Source: Temnopleurus reevesii (taxonomy: Eukaryota > Echinodermata > Echinoidea > Temnopleuroida > Temnopleuridae). Taken from it: a stretch of DNA of 64,000 nt. Position numbers and translations under genes: made by a program. The stretch spans positions 1 through 64,000 of the forward strand of contig BQKZ01000678.1 of the NCBI GenBank assembly GCA_036244855.1, written 5' to 3'. The notes under the pieces are model-generated. The model saw nothing but the letters and a program-made list of their open reading frames with translations, did no database searches and was not told the origin of the DNA. Positions 4,660 to 64,000 of this stretch are shown one piece after another (within the stretch, counting starts at the first letter, position 1; every line of letters begins with the position of its first letter).

Positions 4660-5490
4660 CTGAGCAAAAAAAGATTCAATGATCCAATGATGTTGAACTT
4701 GATGGTGAAGTTTGAGTGCATATTTAATCTTGAGTGTCTGAAAAATACCCAGTTAATTTTGTTAGATATGCAAATGTGCAAACCCTTCTGAAATATGCAT
4801 TTATGAGGTCGAATTTGAAATATGATTTAACTAACCGCTGACCAAAAAGATTCAATTATCCAAAGTTAAACTTGATGGTGAAGTTTGAGTGCAAATTAGA
4901 TGTCTGAAAAATACCTAGTTAATTTTGTTAAATATGCAAATGTGCCAACCTTTCTGAAATATGCATTCATGAGGTCAAATTTGAAATATGATTTACCTAA
5001 CCGCTGACCAAAAAGATTCAATTATCCAAAGTTAAACTTGATGGTGAAGTTTGAGTGCAAATTAGATGTCTGAAAAATACCTAGTTACATGTAATTGTGT
5101 TAAATATGCAAATGTGCTAACCCTTCTGAAATATGCATTCATGAAGTCAAATTTTGAAATATGATTTACCTAACAGCTGACCAAAAAGATTCAATGTTGA
5201 GTGCAAATTAGATGTCTGAAAAATACCTAGTTAATTTTGTTAAATATGCAAATGTGACAACCCTTCTGAAATATGCATTCATGAGGTCAAATTTGAAATA
5301 TGATTTACCTAACCGCTGACCAAAAAGATTCAATGATCCAAAGTTAAACTTCATGGTGAAGTTTGAGTGCAAATTAGATGTCTTAAAAATACCTAGTAAA
5401 TTTTGTTAAATATGCAAATGTGCCAACCCTTCTGAAATATACATTCATGAGGTCAAATTTTGGAATATGATTTACCTAACCGCTGACCCA
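4660..5490. repeat. Satellite-like tandem array, about 166-bp unit, five copies
   Basis: The phrase CTAACCGCTGACC recurs at 4831, 4997, about 5170 (as CTAACAGCTGACC), 5309 and 5476. Spacings are 166, 173, 139 and 167 bases, and a more diverged unit precedes 4831. Each unit contains GATTCAAT, a TGATGGTGAAGTTTGAGTGC block, ATGTCTGAAAAATACC, AAATATGCAAATGTG and a CATGAGGTCAAATTTGAAATATG block. The 139-base unit has lost the GATGGTGAAG block and its flank; the 173-base unit gained about 7 bases. The array is intronic if the first exon is at 3124. Confidence 0.92.
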
Positions 5491-8400
5491 AAGTGAGCGC
5501 AAACATTCCAACAATAACCAGACTCTCAGCCATTAATCTGAATTGTAATGAATTAAGCCTTGATGATCATATGAAAATACATATACACCTCATACATACG
5601 TTATTCAGAATGGTTGGCATCTTTGTGATTTATAGCTAAAAAAAAGGCATAGCTGCCAACCACTATTAACTGATTGTTTTTTTTCTATTTTTAACCCATG
5701 GATATCGGTGCCGAACGATTTTTACCTGTACCCTACGACACATGATGATGAATACAATATACTAATTTAATTTTCATTTGTGTAAACAATTGTTGTCTAG
5801 TTGACACCATTGGTTGATTGAGGTTATGACGAGGTATTCTAGAAAACAGGCGGATGCACAATGGTATCTCTATCTGCATACAAACATATAATTGCTTTTA
5901 ACATAATTGTAATCAAATCATTCATATTTTCTTTATTTTGTATAATTTGCTTGACGTAACACAGTGTATATGAAAAAAATGTAATCAGAACAAAATGTTG
6001 GCTGTATACAATGTATGTCGACGTTCAAATGAATAAATTCCAAATTCCAAACTGATGTCTACCGATAAACATTTTGAGGAAGCACATTATGAATGTCGGT
6101 TGATATCTTGTACCTGTTTAATATAAATGTACACTGTTCAATGCTTTCACCTACTGTATGCCTTACTGGTAGTCTTTGTTTAAATTATTGACTTTGCCAT
6201 TGTCTTGTAGAAAGGTAATCTACAGAAAGTCAATGATGCAGGTTCTTTGAACTCTGTTATTAGGCCAATTTAAAGCCAGTTTTGTAGTACAATGTGCTCT
6301 TATCAATATTTAAAATAAATCTATTGTTTGAAATTTCTACACTATGAATGTGTTTATCTAATAAGGAAATGTATGAAGCATATGTATCCTATAGAATGTA
6401 ATACATGGAAAAAGATAAAAAATATTGAACTGCATAAAAGTGTTTGCTTGATCCAGGAAGCAAGTTGCGCATTAAGCAAAATACAATGACAAAGAAAGAA
6501 AAGCCAAGCTCCCATTATTTTCAATGTATTTGACTGGAAGAAGCAGCTTCCTATCAATGGTTATACCAAGCAAAATTCAATTCGGCAAACATCAATGGAA
6601 GAAAGATGAATTTACAGTTCAAGGAAGAGATATGATGAACCCAGTTCACTTTTGAGACAAACTACACTGTTTGAATCCTTTACGTACTTACACATTAACG
6701 TTTACACATATTGAACAATCTTCTCCTAAATGCTGAAATAATACACAGTAGCAGTCAGTTTTGTAAAAGAAGGAGGAAGATTAACATATTGTTTTAAAAA
6801 GAAAACTTGATTAATTCCTTATTGAATTAAAAAGCAACACTTTGCCTTCTGAATAGCATTATTCTCACATTAGACTTGAATCATTTCTAGACAGAACAAA
6901 CCTTTAACACTGTTAAATATATACAATTACATCTAGAACCTTGAAAAATATGAACGAGGTCCCAGCTGTTCCTCCATGAGTTAACTACATGCACTGTAGA
7001 TGCAATGATTTGTAGCCCCTATACATGATCAATTGCACATAGTGTCTTCAGGTTGCGTTATATCGTGGAAATCTTACACAGACAAGATTTCCTTTTTTTC
7101 TGCTGGTGCATCATACAGGAGGCTGCAAATAAAATGTAATTTGATTGGATTTCGCTGAAAGTCATGGCTACAATATGTCAATTTGGGAGGGAAGGCCGCT
7201 GGAATTTTTGCAAAGTGACTGCTCAAAACGCGCTGATCTCTGCCATACATGGTTGTATGATTGGAGGAGAAATGAGAAATTTGATGAGTTCTTCATTGAA
7301 CGTGACACACTGCAGTTTGGGCATTGTTAAAATTGAGAGTTGTTTTTTTTTACTTGAACAATATACCCATGATATATCACATAACTCTCCCCTCATTTGG
7401 ATGTCATATCAATGCCATTTTTACTAATTTTGTTATAAGATTTAGAAGAATAAGGAGTAGAAACTAGAATTCTCAATTGAGTTCTTCATTTAAAGCTGAA
7501 CGAGAGTTAACTTTCCTATGCACAATGATTTGGTTTACAGAAGAAGGGTACAATATTATCACAAATATTTTGCATTAAATGAGATTTAAAATTGTCATTA
7601 TGTATTTGATATCATGCATGTAAATATATCATTTTGGGAATGAGTCCCGATCACATTCAAGCTGCTTAATGGTTAGGGAAAAATAACAGAGAAATATTTA
7701 GATTTTTTATACTCTGCTCAAGAAAGGACTCAAACAAGCACATTTTCACATAGAGAAATTCTGTCCTGTCATTCAGATGAATTCATCAGAGAAATGAGAA
7801 ACAGATGGCATATTACTGCAATCTTACTGAAACACTGGAGCCTTTCAAATGAAAACACCAGCATGACAGAATAGAATTACAAATATTCATGTTAAAGACA
7901 AGTTTCAGTTTAGATAAAGATATACCAATTTAGTCAGAAAATGATTTGAAGTAGTATTGTCAGAAAGTATTGTTTATAATTCACCAGAAGACTTAGATAA
8001 ACCATCCCCAAATGGCCTTTTAAAACTACTGAAACTGGTGAAAATATACATGGACCAATTTGAATCATTTTGTACTTTTAGTAAGAAGTTAATAACAGAG
8101 GGAATACCATGTAGGACTACACAATGATCTGACAGGTGCAACAGAGCACATTTTCATTTCTAATTTGCCAATAAATCTCTAATACAACATTTTTTTTCTC
8201 CAAAATCAATTTAAATTCCTATTTGTAGCTTTTAGAATTCATTGGAAATGTTGTTCAATGTTGTGGACTTTCATTATCTGGTCATTCCTTGGACAATAAA
8301 TTGTGTTCAATCTTCATAAGTTTAGGAATCTATCTGTATGTACATAAGCCTCCCCTGTCTTATATTAATGGTTTTATTTCTAAATGATTTCTTGCATTTT

Positions 8401-20142: not shown

Positions 20143-21017
20143 GCACCATTATAAGCTATCAAGTGCAAAACATATCTCATTCCAATCCAATCGCATTTCT
20201 CTAGCAGCTTGTTTTTTATCTCTTTGTTGAAAGCTAAATGGCATTATGCGGAGAGCAACGTGTGACGCAAGCTTTTGCATGGCAATGGCAGTCCAAATGT
20301 CAAAGTGGTGCACAATCCATTTGCAAGTACAATATAGAATGTATGATTGAATTGAAGTAGATAAACAATTTACTGATGTGAATTCAAGATAGACAAGTCT
20401 CTTGTGTGTATGAGTGTGTGTACACCAGCGCACGTAAGCGGAGATGGTATTTCATGTGACAGGACTGAATATTTCAATTTGGGTTTCAGTCAATATTTAT
20501 TAGGGAGAAAATAAAGAGCTTCGATGCTCCTTTTCCACGAGACTTTGAGATATCTTACCAATAGCTACACACATTGAACATGTTCATGATATCTTATAAT
20601 CTGATTTTTCAATGAATAGATTTTTTGAAGTCCAATTGCATTCAGTACGATGTCGTATGCAAACAATTCAAAATTGACCTTTTGATTTTTAAATGCCACA
20701 ATGCTTACACAAAAGTGTTATTTTTCATGCGTCAAAGAAACTGGAGTATTTATTTATATATTCATAGGAATGACATTTGGTGGTATCATTGGTTTGAATA
20801 AGAATTTGCTCTAAGCATAAAAAGAAAAGTTGAAAAGCATTATAAAACATGATCAATAATATACAAAAATGGCTATTTTATTTGCCATATAAGCACACAT
20901 TCCTAATGCTATTTCCCTATTACAGTTTTAATGTTTTTTGGTCGTTTTTTTCTTGAAGTTGGTATAGTGTTGTGTTGGAAACATGTGTCATCATCTGATC
21001 ACTGATATGTTAAATAA

Positions 21018-21150
21018 TTTCCCATTCATTTCTGATTGTTTCAAGGAATAATTCTCACTTTTTACTTATTTTTTTTCCTCAGCCGCACATTCACTGTTTG
21101 CTGCAGCTGCTGCAGCAGCGACCGCTCACCAGCCAAGACCAGTTTCAATG
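21018..21150 (+). pseudogene. Tandem duplicate of the exon 3 acceptor and 5' end, with stop
   Basis: A 133-base unit is repeated: 21018-21150 matches 21151-21283. Each copy carries a TTTCTGATTGTTT leader, a pyrimidine tract, an AG and then a GCACAT...CTGCAGCTGC coding start. In the upstream copy the AG is at 21081-21082. Read in the phase of exon 2 it gives AAHSLF, an Ala run and HQPRP, then TAA at 21160-21162. Its reading diverges from the true exon after the Ala run because of a small deletion. It is either a dead exon start or a poison splice site that would trigger transcript decay. Confidence 0.75.
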
Positions 21151-21215
21151 ATTTACCATTAATTTCTGATTGTTTTGAGGAATTATTCTGATTTTTTACT
21201 TACTTTTTCCCTTAG

Positions 21216-21416
21216 CGGCACATCCACTCTTCGCTGCAGCTGCCGCAGCGGCCCACCCCTCCACCAGCCAAGACCAGTTTTCCATGACCCACATGCCCAG
21301 TGCCTTCTCCATGTTTGGGGCACACCCTGCATTCTCTTCCCATCTCATGGGGGCGGAGTTCGGAGGACTCGGGTCGCTACGGCCGACTGCTTCGCCACTT
21401 GGTGCTTCCACTTCAG
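21216..21416 (+). CDS. BAZ2B: BAZ2-like exon 3: residues 28-94, EFGGLG segment
   Basis: The exon follows TTTTTCCCTTAG and ends at a GTTTGT donor; phases are 1 in and 1 out. It encodes AAHPLF, a run of seven Ala, then FSMFGAHPAFSSHLMGAEF and GGLGSLRPTASPLG. Human BAZ2B has the same order near its N-terminus (SAFPMVSHPVFG ... SEFGGLGTLGTP), and this is the best N-terminal evidence for the BAZ2B-like assignment. The segment is otherwise low-complexity and probably disordered. The donor has T at +3, a weak form. The coding part is distinctly GC-richer than the flanking introns. The 133-base duplicate immediately upstream offers a competing acceptor. Confidence 0.9.
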
Positions 21417-50600: not shown

Positions 50601-51869
50601 CCTGTGTCAATTCATTTTTTCATTGTCTTGTGCATGGTCTCTCATTGCAATTGTCCTCAGAATGGCTGACTCTTATGTTACATGAACCATCAGTGTGTTT
50701 GTGAAGTTCCCTTTATCTCAACGAATCAAGGATATACCAAAGATTAAAATCATTTTAACATTGACTTTAAAGCAATATTTTTATCCAGTCGATACGAATT
50801 TCGATACAATTTCAATGATTGTCATTTGAAGTTATATACATTTGTCTACAGATCTGATAAGTGATAAGGCATATTTGATATGCAAAATGCTTATCAATTA
50901 GAAATTTATCATATGTAGGCTAAGTACTCTAACAAATATGCTGCCTTGAAATGTTAACAGCACAATATATTTTGTAACAACATAAAGACCCCATGATATA
51001 TGGGGAGATATAGGATGTAGTAGATTTAATTTGATTACTGTCAACCAAAGGTCTGAATAGATAGATAAATATGTTCATTTTATCATTGTATGCAAATGGA
51101 GATAAAGACAGTTTTACTTCTTTGTGTATTTTATAACTTCCCCAGTATTCATGTTGAAGCCAAAATGCATTTCCTCCATGCATGGACGACTGATTGAATT
51201 AGACAGATATGTATATAATGTTTATGTGTTGAATGAACCAATAGATACACTGTATTGACTTAATATATGTATTGTGTAGAGAGAAAACAGTGACTTGTAA
51301 TTTGTATTTTAGGTATATAGATGTAAAGAGATTGTGTTAGATTGGGTATCCATGGTTTTGCATGGTTGTGTGAAAAGAGAATGGTCGCATAGAAGTGACA
51401 AAGCTATTTAGAGCCCCCCCCCCCTAATATGATTATCTGCCCCTCTTTGAAAAAAAATATGACCACAGTAATGAGGTATTACCCATATTCTTTCTTCCCC
51501 TTTTCTCACTGTTCTTTTCTCTAGTGATGTATTTTCTGAAATATTTTCTATTCAAATTCCATTCTGTCTTGCCCTAAATCTATTGTTTTAAAAAATAGAC
51601 TCACATTCTCTTTAACAAAAACATGCTGTCATATTTCTCAAAAGAAACACTATTCCCACACTCTACGAATGTTTTATCAGCTTCATATACTTCTATTGAA
51701 TAACTTATGTTCTTGACAATAGAGTCATCTTTAAATCAAGAAAATAGGTTAATAATAAATTGCACAAATGAGATTTACCTCCATGATATGAAAAGGATTA
51801 AAGATTTAAACCTCCAAACTCAGAAAAAAATGATGAAGTTGCAATTTCTAACATTTTCACTTTGATCAG
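47663..51869 (+). other. BAZ2B: Intron 9
   Basis: AT-rich. It contains a C11 run at 51414-51424 and a possible retroposon tail ending in (GAAT)3 at 49770-49783, which is weak. From 51240 onwards the sequence is repeated at 58807. Confidence 0.65.
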
Positions 51870-52235
51870 GAGCGAGCAATGAAAGAGCAGCAGGCCCGTG
51901 ACCAGCAAGTTCACGAGGAGGAACAGCGTCGCCGAGTGTTGGCGCTCACTCAGCAGTTTGAACAGCAGATCAAGGCCCAACAGCAGCAACTCCGACTCCA
52001 GAAGAAGGCCCGGGCGGAGCGCCAGGCTGCCTTCCAGCGGGAGAAGGACTTACGCAGCACCGCCTCACAGGCTGCTGCTGCGGCGGCTGCTAGCGCAGCG
52101 GCGCGGATGGCAGCCCAGAAGGCGCAGACCTCTGGACCGAGTGATCTCCTAGACCAGCCACAGGACCTGAGTGTGAATAGCTCACGGAGGCATGACAAGA
52201 CCGATGAGGATAGGAGTAAAGAGAGGAAAAAGCGG
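51870..52235 (+). CDS. BAZ2B: BAZ2-like exon 10: residues 418-539, basic coiled coil and PQDLS
   Basis: Acceptor TTTGATCAG and donor GTACGT; phase 0 at both ends, 122 codons. It starts ERAMKEQQARDQQVHEEEQR and continues as an E/Q/R/K-rich coiled coil (residues 418-480), then a run of Ala, then SGPSDLLDQPQDLSVNSS and a charged tail ending RSKERKKR. PQDLS at residues 514-518 (52158-52172) fits the PxDLS motif that binds the corepressor CtBP. That would add a repressive contact to a remodelling subunit; binding is inference. The same exon occurs again at 59811 with an identical protein. Confidence 0.92.
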
Positions 52236-53750
52236 GTACGTGCCCTGCTGACTGCTTCCCATCCTTCTCTAGAGTAATCTGTTCAGTCTGGAAGTTGTGC
52301 AGCAGCTAACCCTGTTCTCATCTACTCTTTAAAAAATAATTTTCACTAGAAAGGTTAAATTTGAAAAAAATCTGTAGGAGTGTTGACATCAGCCCCTCTT
52401 TAAACCAGATTCCAACACCAGTTAAAATAAATTGTTCTTGGTGCTATCCAGTGTGTTACGTGTATATGCTTTAAGCATTTGATGAAAACATCCTGTGCAT
52501 CTGCACAGATCGCTTCAAAGATTGTTTCAAAGATTGCTCGTGTCTATGATGAATACTTTCAACTGTTCAAGGAGGCAAAGCATTCTTGAACATAACTTGT
52601 GGGATGCTTTGTATAACTGGTCTAGGAAACCGCTCACAACCTCCAAGATCAGTTTCATCATTCTCATTAACTGTTAACTGGTCTCCAATAAACTGGTTTC
52701 TTTGAAACTACCCAGTAATTGAAAAAAAAGTAGTTGAGAACATGGTTGTTGTAGAATTTTAACTGAACCTCTTCATGCTGAATAATATCTTTTTCAATAA
52801 GAGGCCAGGGAACAGAGAGTATACCCTTTAATCACTCAACAGATAATCTCATTGTTCATAAGTTAATTTTTTCCAGTACAGAAAATTTATACAATAAATG
52901 TGTGTAAATTGGATGCGGACTTCAACATACACTCCAATCGGTATGTGATGTTGAACGCTTGATGGAACTAGTACATATTTTCATATTCTTTCAAAGCCAT
53001 AAATTACACTTGCACCAAAATTAATTTCTTCCACGAACTTCGGGCGTGGTTTATTTCAATCACTAATGTGTTGCTTCAATTTAGCACGCTTATTGATGTA
53101 TGTCTTGTTGTGGTTTTTACAAGTTCTTGCACCCTTTCTTTAATTGCAGCAATTTCAAGGTATTGGCATGTTTTGCGTAAATTCGAGGCAAAAACACTTG
53201 TGAAATTCTTTCACGAATCCACTTGCACGCATCCAGTGTACATGTATTTTTGAAACTGTAATATTGAAAGCTATTTTAGTGGCTTTGTGATTTTCTCTAT
53301 ATTTCTTTTACCAGCATAAAAGGATATAATGTTACTTTTTAACAGAATATACAGAAATCTGATGGTATTTTTTTTTAAATTTCATGAGAATTCAAGATAA
53401 TGGTTTTCTCATAAAGCCATTAATTTGATTAGCCTAAAAAATGAATTAGATGGATCCTGGTAATTTCTATTCTTTATTTGTTACATAGGTTTGGGATATC
53501 TTTGTTCGCCAAAAAATATATATTGTTTGTCTATTTTCCAGGATTAATGGTTTGTGATATTTTTATATCAGTAATATTTCACTGTGAAAGTTCATCTGTA
53601 TTGGTTGAAAATCCTGAGCATTTAACTCTTGCTCTCAACCCAACAAAATTTTCCTCAAAATATTATTGGTTTAATACATGGGAATGGTTTCTTCACAGCA
53701 TGCAGCATGACAAGTTCTAAAATAGTTCATCCTATCCTTATCAATTGCAG
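52236..53750 (+). other. BAZ2B: Intron 10
   Basis: AT-rich, no supported exon. It is present again at 60177-61673 with few differences, apart from small deletions near 52620-52750 and 52970. Confidence 0.8.
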
Positions 53751-53973
53751 AAGAAACTTGCAGCTATCATCAACAACCTTGCCCAATCCACCAGCCATTC
53801 CTCCTCCACCCCTCTCTCGGCCTTGGACGCGGTCGCCCACTCCAATGCAGCCACGCCTGGTTGCTATGCCAACGGGTTTGTGGACAGTGAGCAGGGCTCT
53901 CTAAGGGGGGATGGGAGCGATAGGGGGACGCCTCTGTCATTCGCAAACGGCATGGATGATGGGGAATACAGAG
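53751..53973 (+). CDS. BAZ2B: BAZ2-like exon 11: residues 540-613
   Basis: Acceptor ATCAATTGCAG and donor GTAGGT; phase 0 in, 1 out. It encodes KKLAAIINNLAQSTSHSSST, then ALDAVAHSNAATPGCYANGF and a Gly/Asp/Arg-rich end (RGDGSDRGTPLSFANGMDDGEYR). The opening resembles KKVIAALSNPKATSSSPA in human BAZ2B, which also lies between the acidic blocks and the TAM domain. The second copy (61674) has Ala for Ser at residue 570. Confidence 0.87.
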
Positions 53974-55343
53974 GTAGGTAGAAGGAAGTTTCGGCGTTTC
54001 CTAAAAATACGAGCATCTGATTTGGATATTTTCTGCAAAATTTCATCTGTCAGATTTAAAGAGAAAAGAATCATTGATTTGACATTGATAATTCAGAAGT
54101 AGATTTGCAAATCGGGATGAAAATACAGATCATTGCACAAAGCAGTCATAGCAACAAGCATTTTGAAGTCAGTGCCAGACATTCCACCCACTTTTTGATA
54201 GTATGTCAGGGCATTTCCATGTCCATATAGAATTTCTGAGTTAATATACTGGTTCGTTTTGCTGAAATTGCATAAAACCTAAATATACAGATGCTCAATA
54301 ACAGATTTTCATATGAGAGTCGTAAATTATATTTTATAATTATTTATTTTCTAGCAATCATGAATTACTGAAGCACATTTTATGGAATGGTTCTCAGTTT
54401 TCACAGCTTTCTTTAGATCTAATTTTTGTATATTCAGAAAAGATCATATATCTGCATGCTGAGTTCAGGGTAAATGAAAATGTACAAAAAGATATTAATT
54501 ATACCTCCAACATTACACACTCTTCTATTGCCCTGGCAGCGAATCTGATAATCAATCAATTCTTTCAAAGCATCCAAATTTATGGTTGGATTTCCTCAAA
54601 TTTCTTTTTGAACTTTGCTTTCCATTATTTATGTGATCATTTGTTTTGTTTGCCTTCCTAGCTCAATAAGAAGAAATATTTTAAGTGTTTCCAAATTATT
54701 TTTGTGACAATCTGTTTTGTTTGCGTCTTTAGCTGAATAAGAAGAAAAATTTTAGTGGTCCTGTCGCAGCCATGAAAAGGCGCTTGTGGTCGTGGACTTG
54801 CTCACCACCATTTGTGTTGTGGAGGATGGTGAATGAAGTCAATCAAATTAGACTCGCCATCTGCGCTGTGCAAAATATGACTCTGTGGCGCATGCTATCT
54901 GGCCCGGCAAATTTTTCTTCTGTTCTTCTGAGTGCCTCTTGTGTCTGGGACAGGGCCACTATATGGTAAAGTGTAAGTCTTTTGCTTGTAAATTTTGCAA
55001 TTATACAAATTTTAATGACAATTAGACACTAAATTTTGACCTGGCCACATTCTTTAAAGCACCTACCAAGAGTTGATTGATATTCAAACACAGATTTTAC
55101 CACTTTTGCCCAAGCTGTTCTGTTTTACTCAAATTTGGCCTAGCTATGTCTGCATTCAGTGATCTGGATTCAAGTAAAAGTAGCAAAAGTCAATGAATTA
55201 CAGAAGGACCATGAGACCCAACTTCTTCAACCATTTTTGCGACTTACTGCCACTGTACACCATCGTCTACACCTATCAGGGCGACATCGAAATGATTTTG
55301 CTGTACATTTTTCCTACTTCGTTTCACTTTTTACTCCCATTAG
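53974..55343 (+). other. BAZ2B: Intron 11
   Basis: It contains a 71-base tandem duplication (about 54630-54760) whose two copies each carry a pyrimidine tract, AG and a CTSAATAAGAAGAA start; a GC-richer island to 54970; and a degenerate relic of exon 12 at 55144-55300. It is nearly identical in the second copy at 61897-63266. Confidence 0.7.
55144..55300 (+). pseudogene. Relic or alternative form of exon 12 in intron 11
   Basis: After CCTAG at 55139-55143 the sequence reads MSAFSDLDSSKSSKSQ then a stop, against VSANSDLDEDRDCNSSN in true exon 12 exactly 200 bases downstream. Shared blocks in order: TGTCTGC, GATCTGGAT, AGTAGCAA, GTCAATGA, then ACCTATCAGGGCGAC against ACCCATCAGGATGAC. A possible 30-base microexon (55144-55173) ends at GTAAAA and is phase 1 at both ends, so it could be spliced in without a frameshift. 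A dead duplicate is the safer reading. The same sequence is in the second copy (63067-63096). Confidence 0.5.
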
Positions 55344-55508
55344 GTTCATCTGTGTCTGCTAATAGCGATCTGGATGAAGACAGAGACTGTAACAGTAGCA
55401 ATGTCGACAGCGAGTCAATGACCGTGGAATCTGGAAGCAGTACACCTGTACCCATCAGGATGACCTTGAAGCGACCTTCGGACATGGTGCCACTCTTAAC
55501 TCAAATGC
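55344..55508 (+). CDS. BAZ2B: BAZ2-like exon 12: residues 614-668, Ser/Asp-rich linker
   Basis: Acceptor CTCCCATTAG and donor GTAAGT; phases 1 in, 1 out. It encodes GSSVSANSDLDEDRDCNSSN, then VDSESMTVESGSSTPVPIRM and TLKRPSDMVPLLTQM. Acidic Ser-rich, then more basic just before the TAM domain. Differences in the second copy (63267): Glu to Asp at residue 642 and Leu to Phe at 665. Confidence 0.87.
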
Positions 55509-56657
55509 GTAAGTTGACTATTTTGGTTTTATCTAGAAGAGCAATATCAGTGATCATGAAAACATAGAAGGAAAGTATAATCAGTGATATGTTTTATCTT
55601 TTCAAAAGTTTTGTAGATGTTTGCCCTTTTCTATGTGTTTAAATCCCACCGTTGCCACCAGTTATCGCATAAATACTTTTCTAAGTAATAGTTCTTTGGA
55701 AAATAAGTGTGATAGTAATCAATTTTGCAAGAGAGTTTGTATCTTTCCAATTATTTCACTCAGAATCTTACATCTTACAATAGACTTAGAATAGAATAGC
55801 CAATTTTAAGTGAGTGCTTTAGAATAAGCTTGCCTTTAATACTATATTTGTGTCGTTAAACTATCTTGGGGTTTCTTTATACTAATCATTAGAGATATCA
55901 TTTTGGGGGGTGGGAGAAAGGGCAGATTTTGTCCTTAGGTTTGTCATGGAATGTAGCTTTGTAATAGTGTATCTGAGTTGTATTTATGCACCAGGAAGAG
56001 CAAATACTTGAACATAATACATGAAAGGAAATATTACAATAAAAGGATCTTTTTATTACTCCACAACAGGATATTGGCTCAGTTAGATCTAGATTAATGA
56101 GACACTGTTATTACTTTTCATGTCAGATACATTGTATGTTATATTAGCATCATAAGAAGTAATCATACAAAGTGATTGTAAGAGAATGTTTCTTTTATAG
56201 CAGTTTGGAATATAACTGTTTAGCAAAAGAGGAAGGGCTGCTTTGAAAGAAGTATTAAAAAATGATGATTTAATATATTTTGTTGATTATGATGTCAGTA
56301 GGTTACAAATGATATGCAAAGTTTAATTACATCATTTCATGGTACAGAACCTTTAACTTTTAAACACAAGAACAAGACTTGAATCATTGAGACTAAAATT
56401 ACAAGATCCATATTTGCCATCTTCCAATGAGGTTTACATATATATGTACCTGAATTTAATCATTCATGCATATTGTATCTGATTATATTTAAAATGCACA
56501 ATTGTAGGAAATCTCTATCTCAGCATAAAGCCAGTTTCTATGGTAAAAAATTTGCTTCCTGTGTTCACATGCAGGATTCATGAAAATATCTCATTCATTC
56601 TTTCCGACTATTTTTATTGCAAATGTAAATGTTTATCTCTATATTTGAACATTATAG
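55509..56657 (+). other. BAZ2B: Intron 12
   Basis: AT-rich. The part 55546-55705 is present in inverted orientation in the second copy (63478-63688). It includes AAATCCCACCGTTGCCACC at about 55646, which resembles a tRNA B-box and so may be a SINE remnant. From 55985 to 56094 the two copies are again nearly the same. Confidence 0.7.
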
Positions 56658-56944
56658 CAGCAATGAAGAGGAAGAGGCTCCGTGTTACCGATGAACGCGC
56701 CGTCAGATGGCCTCTCGCCAATGGATGGCGCCGGCAGACCATCATCAGGCAGCTTGGGCCCGGAGACCGCATCAAGGGTGACGTCATCTACTACGCTCCC
56801 TGCGGCAAGAAGCTCCGGACGTATCCGGAGGTCGTGAGGTACATCGAGAGGAGGGGCATCACCAACGTAGCAAGGGAACACTTCAGCTACAGTGCTAAGA
56901 TGAGGATAGGAGAGTTCCTCAACCCAAAGCCAGATGGGGATGGG
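56658..56944 (+). CDS. BAZ2B: BAZ2-like exon 13: TAM (MBD-like) domain, residues 669-764
   Basis: Phase 1 in, 0 out; donor GTAAGA. The basic cluster KRKRLRVTDERAVRWPLANG opens the domain, then GWRRQTIIRQLG, VIYYAPCGKKLRTYPEVVRY and FSYSAKMRIGEF. Human BAZ2B matches closely and in order (RRRVTDERELRIPLEYGWQR; VAYYAPCGKKLRQYPEVIKY; FSFSAKIRVGDF). This is the TAM domain (TIP5/ARBP/MBD) of BAZ2A/BAZ2B. In TIP5 it binds structured RNA and helps target the remodelling complex to chromatin; the BAZ2 version is not a typical methyl-CpG reader. This exon is the main evidence for the gene's identity. The acceptor is a tandem TAGCAG, so the first Ala (670) may be optional. Confidence 0.97.
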
Positions 56945-57290
56945 GTAAGAAGCAAATTTTCATAAAACTATATTGTGCCAAAATTATTTTCGCATCAATT
57001 GTTAGTTGTACATGTGTACAGAAAAGTTATATATTGTAATACTTATCATTCATTCATGTTATCTATCACATTGAATTTAATGGTCAACCCTTTCAAAGCT
57101 TTGGTTTTACTCTCATTTCCTTAAAGGGAAAGTGCTCACCTTTTTCTATTTTTGGCAGGCATAATCCATATTTTTCAGTCAGAGTCTTATTTGATTTTTT
57201 TTTAATAGAAAACAAAAGGAGGATCAAGATATTCTATCTCAGTGTAATGAAATATGAATTTATGCTATCTTTTTCTATTTGTCAATGAAG
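56945..57290 (+). other. BAZ2B: Intron 13
   Basis: A 346-base AT-rich intron with nothing notable. The polypyrimidine tract before its acceptor (TTTTTCTATTTGTCAATGAAG) is only moderate. Confidence 0.85.
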
Positions 57291-57462
57291 GGCATCATCT
57301 TTGAAAAGCTGTCCGAGGATGAGCTCTATGACCGCATGCACTATGGCCATCGTCGCAGCAAGGCAGCCCGCATGCAGCGACAAGCGGAGAAGAGGCGTAT
57401 CGCTCAGGAGCTTGCCAGACGTGCCAACGAGGCCAAAGAGCGCAGACGTCTAGAACAGCAAG
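57291..57462 (+). CDS. BAZ2B: BAZ2-like exon 14: post-TAM charged helix, residues 765-821
   Basis: Phase 0 in, 1 out; donor GTAAGA. It encodes GIIFEKLSEDELYDRMHYGH, then RRSKAARMQRQAEKRRIAQE and LARRANEAKERRRLEQQ, an Arg/Ala/Glu-rich helix of the kind that follows the TAM domain in BAZ2 proteins (human: WCLLKEEDVIPRIRAMEG, then a basic stretch). Human BAZ2 proteins have a GRRGRPP AT-hook right here; this exon has HRRSKAARM instead. The frame stays open to the donor, and the rest of the protein must lie outside the window or past an assembly join. Confidence 0.93.
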
Positions 57463-58805
57463 GTAAGATTTTCTTCAAAGTAATTCTGAGGTGCTGTTGC
57501 ATGGAACAATCGAAAGTACAGATTCACAGAGATGCCAATTGAAATACTGTCCAAAGTGTCATTGGTGGCCATCCAACGGAAACAGAAAAAGGTGACCATT
57601 CAAGACAGGTGACGTGGATTGTGTTTCAGCTGTGCGTAGATCCACGCGCGACCATACGATCGACTGATGGCCCTTTCTTCAGCGCCAGGAGTTATCAGTG
57701 AGTGCAAGAAAGGTTCATCAGTTGTTCGAACAGTCTTGCGTAGATCTATTCACAGCTTTATGAAACACAACCCAGTACAGATAGGTTCTGCAGGACATAG
57801 TTTTATCTGGAAGGAAGAAATATAACTGTCTTCTATAAAACAGTTGGCTAAGACAAATCGCTTCCATTACAGGTTTGACTTAGTGTAGAATAGGAACCTC
57901 GATTTAGTAGGATGTATGGGAAATTTACCATACTGATGGTCATTTGCTTCATCCCCATGAAGTTGCTTTCAATATCTATCATGCAACAAATCGGCACTGA
58001 CAATTTCTTAGCAATCCTAGGATTTTACTAAGTGGAAATTAATGTTTCTGACTGTTAAAATGATAAATGACAGATGTGTATAATTTGTTGTCACAGAAAA
58101 GCTCTCTGAAACACCCCTCAAGTTTGATCTACTTTGTTACATGGTGGCATTTTGTGGCAGTCTTTTATTTTTTGAATATATTAGACACCTTCTAAAGATT
58201 TATGCACATACCTCTTCATGATTTTTAAGCTACATTAATATTGCATTTTCGACCGAAATTAAGTTGTGTTGCTGAAATGCTCCCCTGAACTTTGCTTGAG
58301 TGTGCTTTTATCCTCACGCAAGCTCTCCCAGTGAACGTTGCCACAAGTTGTTTTTTTTCCTCAAACACAGTCTATTATTTGATGTGTATAAAATCATTTT
58401 TAGTCAGAAGTTTGACTTGTGTCTTGAGTTGGTGTAAAGTTTGCACTTGTAGCAGTTGGAAGATTTTTGTTGCCAAAGTGATAGAAATGTAGGCGGTTGT
58501 GAATCTCATGCAGGTGTTTTTCTCTGTGTAAAGGTTCTAAGTTATATTGATCGTATGTAACACTTTGATACCGCTGTCGCTTCGAATTGCTGGATTGAAG
58601 TAGCTTACGATAAAATGCTATTTTTATCCCTGTCTGATAGGTGATTAGCTTTTTACCTTTTGTAAACTTCAACTTTATACTTTATTTTAGATTTTCTCAT
58701 TTTTTTTTACCAAGTGGTAAAAGCATTAAGTATAAACTATTTAAAACAAACAGACAAAATAAGACAGACAAACAAATGATGTATATTCAGTAATATAACT
58801 ACTCA
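57463..58805 (+). other. BAZ2B: Start of intron 14, up to the N
   Basis: AT-rich. It contains a decayed inverted-repeat element at 57616-57773. No further exon is visible before the single ambiguous base at 58806, where homology to 51240 begins abruptly. Confidence 0.75.
57616..57773. mobile_element. MITE-like inverted-repeat element, about 158 bp
   Basis: The left end GGATTGTGTTTCAGCTGTG, TAGATCCACGC and CGATCGACTGATG recurs in reverse at the right as GGTTGTGTTTCATAAAGCTG, TAGATCTACGC and CGAACAACTGATG. The arms are about 60 bases with mismatches and a small gap. No clear target duplication, so the superfamily is undetermined. Confidence 0.6.
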
Positions 58806-58806
58806 N
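58806..58806. other. Single ambiguous base (N)
   Basis: The only non-ACGT base in the window. It sits immediately before the first base of the second repeat copy (58807), which makes it look like a scaffold join or an unresolved base at a junction. Confidence 0.98.
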
Positions 58807-59810
58807 AATAGATACACTGTATTGACTTAATATATGTATTGTGTAGAGAGAAAACAGTGACTTGTAATTTGTATTTTAGGTATATAGATGTAAAGAGATT
58901 GGCCCGTATTCCGATAGCAAGGTTTAAGTTAACCCTGGTCTAAATCTAAATCTGGCCAAAAAGGCTAGAATCTCTAACCGTCAATGTTTAATTTACCAGC
59001 ATATATGGTACTCATATTATTTAAAACTGTCTCTGAATGAAAACCTGAAAAGTTTTCTACATTATTAGAGCATGGGAAAAGATAGCATCCAACATACAAA
59101 TCAAACATTGGAAGTAACATTTTGACAATTTTGGCCAACCATACTTAAACCACAGGTTTAGACCAGGGTTAACTTAAACCTCGCTATCGGAATACGGGCC
59201 ATTGTGTTCGATTGGATTTCCATGTTTTTGCATGGTTGTGTGAAAAGAGAATGATTACATAGAAGTAACAAAGCCATTTAGAGCCCCCCATACATATATC
59301 TGCCTCCTCTTTTACAAAATATTATCACAGTAATAGAATATTACCCATGTATTTTAAGAGCCTAAGTGAGGATTATCCCTGAATACTGTTCTCTCCTTCT
59401 ACCTCTCTCTCTTTCTCTTTCTTTACGTTTCTTCTCCTTCTTCCCCTTTTCTCTCACTGTACCTTTCTCTTGTGGATGTATTTTCTGAAAATTCTTTTTT
59501 GCAAATTACATACCGTCCTACCTTAAATTTACCTTCTTCAAGATTTGACTCATATTAAGCCTAACAATTATAACAGATACTGTAATGTTTGTCAGAAGAA
59601 ATAATATTCCCTTGTTCTACTTATGTGTTATCATTTCTATCTACTTTTATGAACTTCTGGATAATAGAATAATCTTTAAAGAAAGTATGTAAACAATAAA
59701 ATGCATAAATGGGATTTAGCTCCATGACAGGAAATAGATTAAGGAATTGTACCTCCAAACTCAGAAAAATTGATGAAGTTGCAATTTTCTAACATTTTCA
59801 CTTTGATCAG
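58807..59810 (+). other. Intronic DNA before exon 10' (copy of the end of intron 9)
   Basis: It holds the 300-bp inverted-repeat transposon (58901-59200) and a CT-rich stretch at 59390-59450 that copy 1 lacks. It lacks the C11 run of copy 1. Confidence 0.8.
58901..59200. mobile_element. 300-bp MITE with 44-bp terminal inverted repeats
   Basis: The left terminus GGCCCGTATTCCGATAGC continues through AAGTTAACCCTGGTCTAAA; the right terminus is its reverse complement over 44 bases with one mismatch. It is flanked by ATT on both sides (58898-58900 and 59201-59203), and copy 1 has a single ATT at the corresponding empty site (around 51334). No open frame inside, so it is non-autonomous. A 3-bp duplication suggests the PIF/Harbinger group, which is inference. 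Confidence 0.92.
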
Positions 59811-60176
59811 GAGCGGGCAATGAAAGAGCAGCAGGCCCGTGACCAGCAGGTCCACGAGGAGGAACAGCGTCGCCGAGTGTTGGCGCTCACGCAGCAGTTT
59901 GAACAGCAGATCAAGGCCCAACAGCAGCAGCTCCGTCTCCAGAAGAAGGCCCGGGCAGAGCGCCAGGCCGCCTTCCAGCGGGAGAAGGACCTACGCAGCA
60001 CCGCCTCGCAGGCTGCTGCTGCGGCGGCTGCTAGCGCGGCGGCGCGGATGGCAGCCCAGAAGGCGCAGACCTCTGGACCGAGTGATCTCCTAGACCAGCC
60101 ACAGGACCTGAGTGTGAATAGCTCACGGAGGCATGACAAGACCGATGAGGATAGGAGTAAAGAGAGGAAAAAGAGG
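59811..60176 (+). CDS. BAZ2B: Second copy of exon 10 (identical protein)
   Basis: Same acceptor (TTTGATCAG) and donor (GTACGT) as 51870-52235. There are 12 base differences over 366, all synonymous, so the coiled coil and PQDLS motif are unchanged. It needs phase 0 upstream, while the preceding exon 14 ends in phase 1. Splicing exon 14 directly to it would shift the frame and reach TGA at 59840-59842. It therefore cannot follow exon 14 in a working transcript unless another exon intervenes. Confidence 0.9.
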
Positions 60177-61673
60177 GTACGTGCCCTGCTGACTGCTTCC
60201 CATCCTTCTCTAGAGTAATCTGTTCAGTCTGGAAGTGGTGCAGCAGCTAAACCTGTTCTCATCTACTTTTTAAAAAATAATTTTCACTAGAAAGGTTAAA
60301 TTTGAAAAAAATCTGTAGGAGTGTTGACATCAGCCCCTCTTTAAACCAGATTCCAACACCAGTTAAAATAAATTGTTCTTGGTGCTATCCAGTGTGTTAC
60401 GTGTATATGCTTTAAGCATTTGATGAAAACATCCTGTGCATCTGCACAGATCGCTTCAAAGATTGTTTCAAAGATTGCTCGTGTCTATGATGAATACTTT
60501 CAACTGTTCAAGGAGGCAAAGCATTCTTGAACATAACTTGTGGGATGCTTTGTATAACTGGTCTAGGAAACCACTTTAGCCTCCAAGATCAGTTTCATCA
60601 ATCTAGTGTTGACTGGTCTCCAATAAACTGGTTTCTTTGAAACTACCCAGTAATTGAAAAAAAAAGTAGTTGAGAACAGGGATTTTAACTGAACCTCTTC
60701 ATGCTCAATAATATTTTTTTTTTTTCAATAAGAGGCCAGGGAACGAAGAGTATACATTTTAATCACTCGACAGATAATCTCATTGTTCATAAGTTAATTT
60801 TTTCCAGTACAGAAAATTTATACAATAAATGTGTGTAAATTGGATGCGGACTTCAACATACACTCCAATAGGTATGTGATGTTGAGAGCTTGATGGACAT
60901 ATTTTCATATTCTTTCAAAGCCATAAATTACACTTGCACCAAAATTAATTTCTTCCACGAACTTCGGGCGTGGTTTATTTCAATCACTAATGTGTTGCTT
61001 CAATTTAGCACGCTTATTGATGTATGTCTTGTTGTGGTTTTACAAGTTCTTGCACCCTTTCTTTAATTGCAGCAATTTCAAGGTATTGGCATGTTTTGCG
61101 TGAATTCGAGGCAAAAACACTTGTGAAATTCTTTCACGAATCCACTTGCACGCATCCAGTGTACATGTATTTTTGAAACTGTAATATTGAAAGCTATTTT
61201 AGTGGCTTTGTGATTTTCTCTATATTTCTTTTACCAGCATAAAAGGATATAATGTTACTTTTTAACAGAATATACAGAAATCTGATGGTATTTTTTTTTA
61301 AATTTCATGAGAATTCAAGATAATGGTTTTCTCATAAAGCCATTAATTTGATTAGCCTAAAAAATGAATTAGATGGATCCTGGTAATTTCTATTCTTTAT
61401 TTGTTACATAGGTTTGGGATATCTTTGTTCGCCAAAAAATATATATTGTTTGTCTATTTTCCAGGATTAATGGTTTGTGATATTTTTATATCAGTAATAT
61501 TTCACTGTGAAAGTTCATCTGTATTGGTTGAAAATCCTGAGCATTTAACTCTTGCTCTCAACCCAACAAAATTTTCCTCAAAATATTATTGGTTTAATAC
61601 ATGGGAATGGTTTCTTCACAGCATGCAGCATGACAAGTTCTAAAATAGTTCATCCTATCCTTATCAATTGCAG
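60177..61673 (+). other. Copy of intron 10
   Basis: Nearly the same as 52236-53750, with a few substitutions and short deletions (for example around 60590-60710). No independent feature. Confidence 0.85.
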
Positions 61674-61896
61674 AAGAAACTTGCAGCTATCATCAACAAC
61701 CTTGCCCAATCCACCAGCCATTCATCCTCCACCCCTCTCTCGGCCTTGGACGCGGTCGCCCACGCCAATGCAGCCACGCCCGGTTGCTATGCCAACGGGT
61801 TTGTGGACAGTGAGCAGGGCTCTCTGAGGGGGGATGGGAGCGATAGGGGGACGCCTCTGTCATTCGCAAACGGCATGGATGATGGGGAATACAGAG
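61674..61896 (+). CDS. BAZ2B: Second copy of exon 11
   Basis: It corresponds to 53751-53973 with the same splice sites. Four base differences: three synonymous and one changing Ser to Ala (residue 570 of the main model). Confidence 0.87.
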
Positions 61897-63266
61897 GTAG
61901 GTAGAAGGAAGTTTCGGCGTTTCCTAAAAATACGAGCATCTGATTTGGATATTTTCTGCAAAATTTCATCTGTCAGATTTAAAGAGAAAAGAATCATTGA
62001 TTTGACATTGATAATTCAGAAGTAGATTTGCAAATCGGGATGAAAATACAGATCATTGCACAAAGCAGTCATAGCAACAAGCATTTTGAAGTCAGTGCCA
62101 GACATTCCACCCACTTTTTGATAGTATGTCAGGGCATTTCCATGTCCATATAGAATTTCTGAGTTAATATACTGGTTCGTTTTGCTGAAATTGCATAAAA
62201 CCTAAATATACAGATGCTCAATAACAGATTTTCATATGAGAGTCGTAAATTATATTTTATAATTATTTATTTTCTAGCAATCATGAATTACTGAAGCACA
62301 TTTTATGGAATGGTTCTCAGTTTTCACAGCTTTCTTTAGATCTAATTTTTGTATATTCAGAAAAGATCATATATCTGCATGCTGAGTTCAGGGTAAATGA
62401 AAATGTACAAAAAGATATTAATTATACCTCCAACATTACACACTCTTCTATTGCCCTGGCAGCGAATCTGATAATCAATCAATTCTTTCAAAGCATCCAA
62501 ATTTATGGTTGGATTTCCTCAAATTTCTTTTTGAACTTTGCTTTCCATTATTTATGTGATCATTTGTTTTGTTTGCCTTCCTAGCTCAATAAGAAGAAAT
62601 ATTTTAAGTGTTTCCAAATTATTTTTGTGACAATCTGTTTTGTTTGCGTCTTTAGCTGAATAAGAAGAAAAATTTTAGTGGTCCTGTCGCAGCCATGAAA
62701 AGGCGCTTGTGGTCGTGGACTTGCTCACCACCATTTGTGTTGTGGAGGATGGTGAATGAAGTCAATCAAATTAGACTCGCCATCTGCGCTGTGCAAAATA
62801 TGACTCTGTGGCGCATGCTATCTGGCCCGGCAAATTTTTCTTCTGTTCTTCTGAGTGCCTCTTGTGTCTGGGACAGGGCCACTATATGGTAAAGTGTAAG
62901 TCTTTTGCTTGTAAATTTTGCAATTATACAAATTTTAATGACAATTAGACACTAAATTTTGACCTGGCCACATTCTTTAAAGCACCTACCAAGAGTTGAT
63001 TGATATTCAAACACAGATTTTACCACTTTTGCCCAAGCTGTTCTGTTTTACTCAAATTTGGCCTAGCTATGTCTGCATTCAGTGATCTGGATTCAAGTAA
63101 AAGTAGCAAAAGTCAATGAATTACAGAAGGACCATGAGACCCAACTTCTTCAACCATTTTTGCGACTTACTGCCACTGTACACCATCGTCTACACCTATC
63201 AGGGCGACATCGAAATGATTTTGCTGTACATTTTTCCTACTTCGTTTCACTTTTTACTCCCATTAG
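61897..63266 (+). other. Copy of intron 11
   Basis: I found no difference from 53974-55343 by eye, including the 71-base tandem duplication and the exon 12 relic (63067-63223). This is far closer than the exons it separates. Confidence 0.85.
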
Positions 63267-63431
63267 GTTCATCTGTGTCTGCTAATAGCGATCTGGATGA
63301 AGACAGAGACTGTAACAGTAGCAATGTCGACAGCGAGTCAATGACCGTGGACTCTGGAAGCAGTACACCTGTACCCATCAGGATGACCTTGAAGCGACCT
63401 TCGGACATGGTGCCACTCTTCACTCAAATGC
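63267..63431 (+). CDS. BAZ2B: Second copy of exon 12
   Basis: It corresponds to 55344-55508 with the same splice sites. Two base differences, both changing the protein: Glu to Asp (residue 642) and Leu to Phe (665). The next exon would be a second TAM exon beyond the window. Confidence 0.87.
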
Positions 63432-64000
63432 GTAAGTTGACTATTTTGGTTTTATCTTGAAGAGAAATCATGCTTTTCCCAAAGAATTATTGATTAGAAA
63501 TGCATTTATCAGACGACTGGTGGCAGCGGTGGGATTCAAGCCCCTACATTTCAGACAGTGACAAAATAATAAGTTATATTCTGTGAATCAAATGGGCAGG
63601 ATCCTTCACAAATCACTACAAAACTTGTAAAAATATCAAGCAGGTCACTGCTTATTCTTTACTTCCATGTTTTCATAATCACTGATATTATAACCAAATT
63701 TGCAAGGGAACCCATATCCTTCCAATCATTTCACTCAAAATCTTACAGATTTTTTTTAACTAGCTGTTTAACAAGGGTGTATTTCACAGACTATTCTTTT
63801 CTCTTTTTATTTTTGAGGGGGATAGATTTTGCTGGGTTTGTATGTGATATAGCTTTGTAGGAGTGTGGAAATATACGTCTCCAGTTGTATTTTGCACCAG
63901 GAAGAGCAAATACTTGTACATAATACATGAAAGGAAATATTACAATAAAAGGATCTTTTTATTACTCCACAACAGGATATTGGCTCAGTTAGATCTAGAT
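63432..64000 (+). other. Copy of the start of intron 12, with inverted block
   Basis: After 27 shared bases it differs from copy 1: 63478-63688 matches 55546-55705 only when reversed. It then realigns in the same direction from about 63695, and is nearly exact from about 63890 to the edge. It contains GGTGGCAGCGGTGGGATTC (63521-63539), the antisense of a tRNA B-box-like sequence. Confidence 0.75.

Follow-up and report, generated by a model that had tools for sequence, protein, structure and literature searches.

The closest described systems to the locus analysed here are the heterotype false duplication and the false exon gain of genome assemblies (PMC9516828; PMC8081667). In the sections of PMC9516828 on which we draw, the main marks of a false duplication are halved read depth, gaps between duplicated pairs on the same scaffold, discordant linked reads and one-copy k-mers, and the false gain of exons within a gene is defined and named. 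Our locus shares with these systems, as the corresponding parts of the two articles describe them, a direct duplication on one scaffold, a gap between the copies, allele-like differences and doubled exons in one gene. It differs in two respects. The published heterotype marks include read depth, read pairs and k-mers (PMC9516828, same sections), whereas the present case is known from assembled sequence alone. The copies also diverge by ~3-4% in two long blocks and by much more in parts of the introns, compared with the 1.6% quoted as the heterozygosity of a zebra finch (PMC8081667). We consider it highly probable that the duplication is of the heterotype false kind, two alleles of a BAZ2 region having been abutted by assembly software, and is not a duplication of the gene.

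The window, the whole stretch of DNA that was analysed, has 64,000 bases and is made up of bases 1-64000 of a scaffold of 140,419 bases, in an assembly of 558,132,977 bases in 10,433 contigs. Its one non-ACGT base is an N at 58806. Self-comparison of the scaffold, extended past the window, gives a colinear repeat on the same strand, 51240-58805 against 58807-66721 (Table 1). Homology abuts the N from both sides: the left copy runs up to the base before it, and the right copy starts at the base after it, as the earlier note had said. Such limits are those that two overlapping, unmerged contigs would give. That note had described the repeat as 51240-56094 against 58807-64000; the recurrence and the orientation stand, and the full extents are larger. 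It had also placed the right edge of the window within the repeat, and in the extended scaffold the last block does continue, to 66721. The matching blocks begin with 95 bp of 100% identity (51240-51334 against 58807-58901), followed by 51331-51486 against 59201-59348 (80%) and the main block, 51489-55545 against 59435-63468 (95.85% over 4,072 columns). The last block, which inside the window is 55924-56094 against 63824-64000 (85.7%), extends in the scaffold to 55924-58805 against 63824-66721 (97.18% over 2,908 columns). The N thus lies exactly between the copies, as a gap lies between the members of a heterotype pair on one scaffold. A true tandem duplication would be expected to show contiguous assembly across its breakpoint; here the breakpoint is the N.

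Table 1. Features of the repeat and of the doubled BAZ2 exons (window coordinates; scaffold coordinates beyond 64000).
Feature	Location	Strand	Remarks
Left copy	51240..58805	+	3' end of left contig; e10-e14 of one putative allele; colinear with 58807-66721
Single N	58806..58806	.	Contig join; sole N of the window
Right copy	58807..64000, on to scaffold 66721	+	Start of right contig; e10-e14 of the other putative allele
e10	51870..52235; right copy 59811-60176	+	Splice-site model; entered in phase 0; 12 differences/366 bp
e11	53751..53973; right copy 61674-61896	+	4 differences/223 bp
e12	55344..55508; right copy 63267-63431	+	2 differences/165 bp
e13, TAM/MBD	56658..56944; right copy scaffold 64565-64851	+	3 differences/287 bp, all synonymous
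e14	57291..57462; right copy scaffold 65203-65374	+	1 difference/172 bp; phase 1 exit
MITE-like insertion	58901..59200	.	300 bp, right copy only; ~46-bp terminal inverted repeats
Inverted stretch	55543..55703 vs 63475-63689	.	Two minus-strand pieces, ~82% and ~84%

The gene was taken from the start to be a BAZ2 of echinoderm affinity, and this is borne out. Matches to MBD, DDT, PHD, Bromodomain and WSD score above the Pfam gathering scores in 5/5 chosen plus-strand ORFs, so that the BAZ2 domain set (TAM/MBD, DDT, WSD, PHD, bromodomain) is found in one stretch on one strand. The TAM exon of the left copy matches Pfam MBD with E=3.1e-22, and its best solved relatives are BAZ2B (2.6e-29) and BAZ2A (7.7e-21). 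A search for relatives with a rough 2,000-aa sequence, of which residues 330-700 were scored (E<=0.001), found 180 proteins; among the 120 listed, BAZ2B-like proteins of starfish, brittle stars and feather stars lead, which points to an echinoderm, or an organism near one, as the source. Three of these proteins, from Acanthaster planci (P0001), Amphiura (P0002) and Patiria miniata (P0003), share with our gene the MBD/TAM, DDT, WSD, PHD and bromodomain matches and are 61-62% identical to it across 64-68% of the queried sequence. The echinoderm relatives have one TAM, whereas the scaffold as drawn has two. In the phmmer scan a single TAM was found in 120/120 listed relatives of the 180, a set that includes many isoforms of the same species and does not amount to 120 independent cases.

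The gene model, with an exon numbering (e10-e14) of our own, is a transcript-free one built on splice sites and homology judgement. Its donor site for exon 9 is a weak one, and more exons are possible between 44854 and 51240; exon 10 itself fixes the entry phase. The doubled block is made up of five exons (366, 223, 165, 287 and 172 bp; 1,213 bp per copy). Exons 10, 11 and 12 had been reported as present twice, and all three are, together with the TAM exon and the one after it; the second TAM exon, which the earlier note had suggested looking for just beyond 64000, is there in the extended scaffold. The next exon, e15 (scaffold 67907-67999), fits the phase 1 exit of e14, and the join of the two agrees with the continuous protein of the relatives, as in the LEQQEMARR segment of Amphiura P0002.

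When exon 9, one copy and e15 are joined, the frame is open with either copy. When both copies are placed in series between exon 9 and e15, the frame shifts at the junction of e14 with the second e10, and a stop follows 10 residues past the first copy. A true in-series exon duplication requires that the frame be kept on serial splicing; this block has a phase 0 entry and a phase 1 exit. The scaffold order, with all exons spliced, would therefore be unable to make a BAZ2 protein. The frame test leaves room for mutually exclusive use of the copies, in which a true tandem duplication would supply two cassettes and exon 9 would be spliced to either block and then to e15. Such an arrangement would give this echinoderm a BAZ2 with two interchangeable TAM-bearing segments, and either block alone is indeed in frame with its neighbours and under coding constraint. 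We nevertheless regard it as very improbable. Its breakpoint would fall exactly at the only N of the window, some further single-N joins also have end overlaps, one TAM was counted per protein in the 120 listed relatives, and the choice of cassette would alter little, the TAM protein sequences being identical and the whole blocks differing by 3 residues.

The two copies differ at 22 coding positions in 404 codons, of which 19 are synonymous and three nonsynonymous, and coding indels are absent. The corresponding rates are dS ~0.073 and dN ~0.0032 (dN/dS ~0.04). Of the changes in a duplicate that is not in use, about three in four are expected to alter the protein. With this approximation, which is ours, the binomial chance of three or fewer nonsynonymous changes is 2.5e-9. 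Because of the 19:3 bias and the intact coding length, both copies look like working alleles. The same figures bear on a true tandem duplication of recent date, confined perhaps to one of the chromosomes, with the second copy broken or skipped. Its layout would equal that of an end overlap and it would accommodate the frame shift in the drawn order, but a broken copy is not expected to hold a 19:3 ratio with no coding indel at ~7% synonymous divergence, and the N would again lie at the breakpoint. This history, too, we hold to be very unlikely.

The identity between the copies is a mosaic, uneven along the repeat. There are no differences across the 1,525 bp of 53904-55428, and 26 and 30 substitutions in two 100-bp intron bins at 51500-51699. 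This uneven pattern (no differences in 1,525 bp vs 26-30% over 200 bp of intron close by) counts against the copies being alleles; recombination or polishing could be its cause. In 55546-55923 the colinear match is of 57 bp only and is accompanied by two inverted matches; we read the inverted match at 55543-55703 as an apparent small inversion between the copies. The MITE-like insertion is flanked by ATT on both sides (58898-58900 and 59201-59203), and its empty site in the left copy is at 51331-51333. The 95-bp identical start of the repeat takes in one chance base of this element. Its family is abundant in the assembly, with 1,812 first-look candidates to the query 58902-59200, 40 of which were scored. 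Many of its relatives are of ~310 bp. Just one of the two copies has the element, so that polymorphism or recent movement of the family is possible. Substitutions, indels, an insertion and an inversion are together the kinds of difference that would be expected of divergent haplotypes.

Differences of this nature also bear on a homotype false duplication, in which one haplotype would have been assembled twice through sequencing errors. The contig boundary and the gap between the copies would suit that origin. The differences are, however, allele-like, as in heterotype false duplication, and not error-like: silent changes outnumber the others 19 to 3, the 1,213 coding bp are free of indels, and an entire repeat-family element of 300 bp is present in just one copy. 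We give this origin hardly any weight, less than either form of true tandem duplication.

The surroundings of the repeat are single-copy, short interspersed repeats apart. The 4,000 bp to its left match themselves and, elsewhere, five short stretches of 55-93 bp; the 3,279 bp to its right match themselves and a ~230-bp interspersed repeat (40 candidates scored). A 2-kb query from the repeat, compared with the assembly, found no copy outside the scaffold.

Other joins were sampled in 300 kb of two scaffolds, bases 1-140000 of the present one (C678) and bases 1-160000 of one chosen arbitrarily (C100), which hold 11 single-N joins and four long N gaps. In a first terminal-overlap test, 12 kb per side were compared and plus-strand matches lying <=10 bp from the N were counted, one consistent overlap not being required. 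Matches reached the N from both sides at 4/11 single-N joins (58806 included), 0/4 long gaps and 2/400 random cuts (Fisher p 4e-6), and from at least one side at 7/11, 0/4 and 36/400, respectively (Fisher p 2e-5). Without the join at 58806 the single-N counts are 3/10 (p 1e-4) and 6/10 (p 1.3e-4). At 4 of the 11 single-N joins this test found no terminal match at the N. A stricter test, in which a single consistent overlap was demanded and 400 fresh controls were used, was passed by 3/11 single-N joins (7,566, 843 and 61 bp), 0/4 long gaps and 4/400 controls (p 5e-4), or by 2/10 single-N joins when 58806 is left out (p 0.008). The contrast between single-N joins and controls is weakened by the stricter test. 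The four passing controls have overlaps of <=259 bp each, and strict overlaps of >800 bp are present at only 2/11 single-N joins.

The individual joins vary. C100:129047 has an overlap of 843 bp (95.9%), and at C100:11568 an exact 61-bp overlap lies unmerged beside the N. C678:116297 has matches at both ends, of unequal lengths, and failed the stricter test; at C678:109733 only the right piece has a match, at its beginning. From their end matches, these four joins are likely to be further unmerged overlaps. A k-mer signature of de Bruijn assembly, with the exact start of 95 bp equal to k-1, was considered and dropped: exact starts elsewhere vary (95, 105, 38, 61 and 351 bp), and the 95 bp contain the chance base next to the inserted element.

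We propose that two alleles set end to end arose at this locus as follows. Two contigs would hold a single BAZ2 region, each in a different allelic form, and would overlap by ~7.6-7.9 kb. The assembler would have left them unmerged because, besides substitutions and indels, a small inversion and a transposon-like insertion separate them, and the scaffolder would then have abutted both with one N. The copies would represent the two homologous chromosomes of a single diploid individual. We take the single N at the join to be the scaffolder's mark for a negative gap, an assumption about how such programs behave. A printed rule of one N for a negative gap was not found in passages of PMC5368935, PMC8110574 and PMC9112764. 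The earlier note had put forward two haplotypes placed end to end as the simplest account, with a partial gene duplication by exon shuffling as the alternative. The former is favoured by the N-bounded homology, the failure of the serial frame, the coding constraint in both copies, the single-copy flanks and the overlaps at other Ns; the latter is not supported.

If left uncorrected, annotation of this scaffold would yield a BAZ2 that is split or broken in frame and has spurious additional exons. Exon gains or gene counts that depend on single-N joins of this assembly need checking before use, since end overlaps are present at some other sampled joins of this type.

Several smaller repeats lie on the same scaffold. 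An AT-rich 166-bp tandem repeat occupies 4668-5492 (Tandem Repeats Finder: 3.1 copies at 4668-5195, with self-matches to 5492). At 21013-21280 a 134-bp unit is present twice (83% matches); it includes coding-like sequence and an acceptor-like CAG site, and is possibly a small tandem exon duplication. A 165-bp tandem repeat of 2.6 copies at C678:76639-77076, with related copies to ~77515, has a unit that holds a BAZ2 exon end with its GTAAGT donor, the exon end being duplicated here within contiguous, N-free sequence. Neighbouring ORFs at C678:84073-84562 encode the similar peptides NTNLKEEAEMDLTPSHSLDKELAFN and NPNVKEGGYVESDPSHSWDEELAFN; an exon of BAZ2 may have been duplicated here at an older date.
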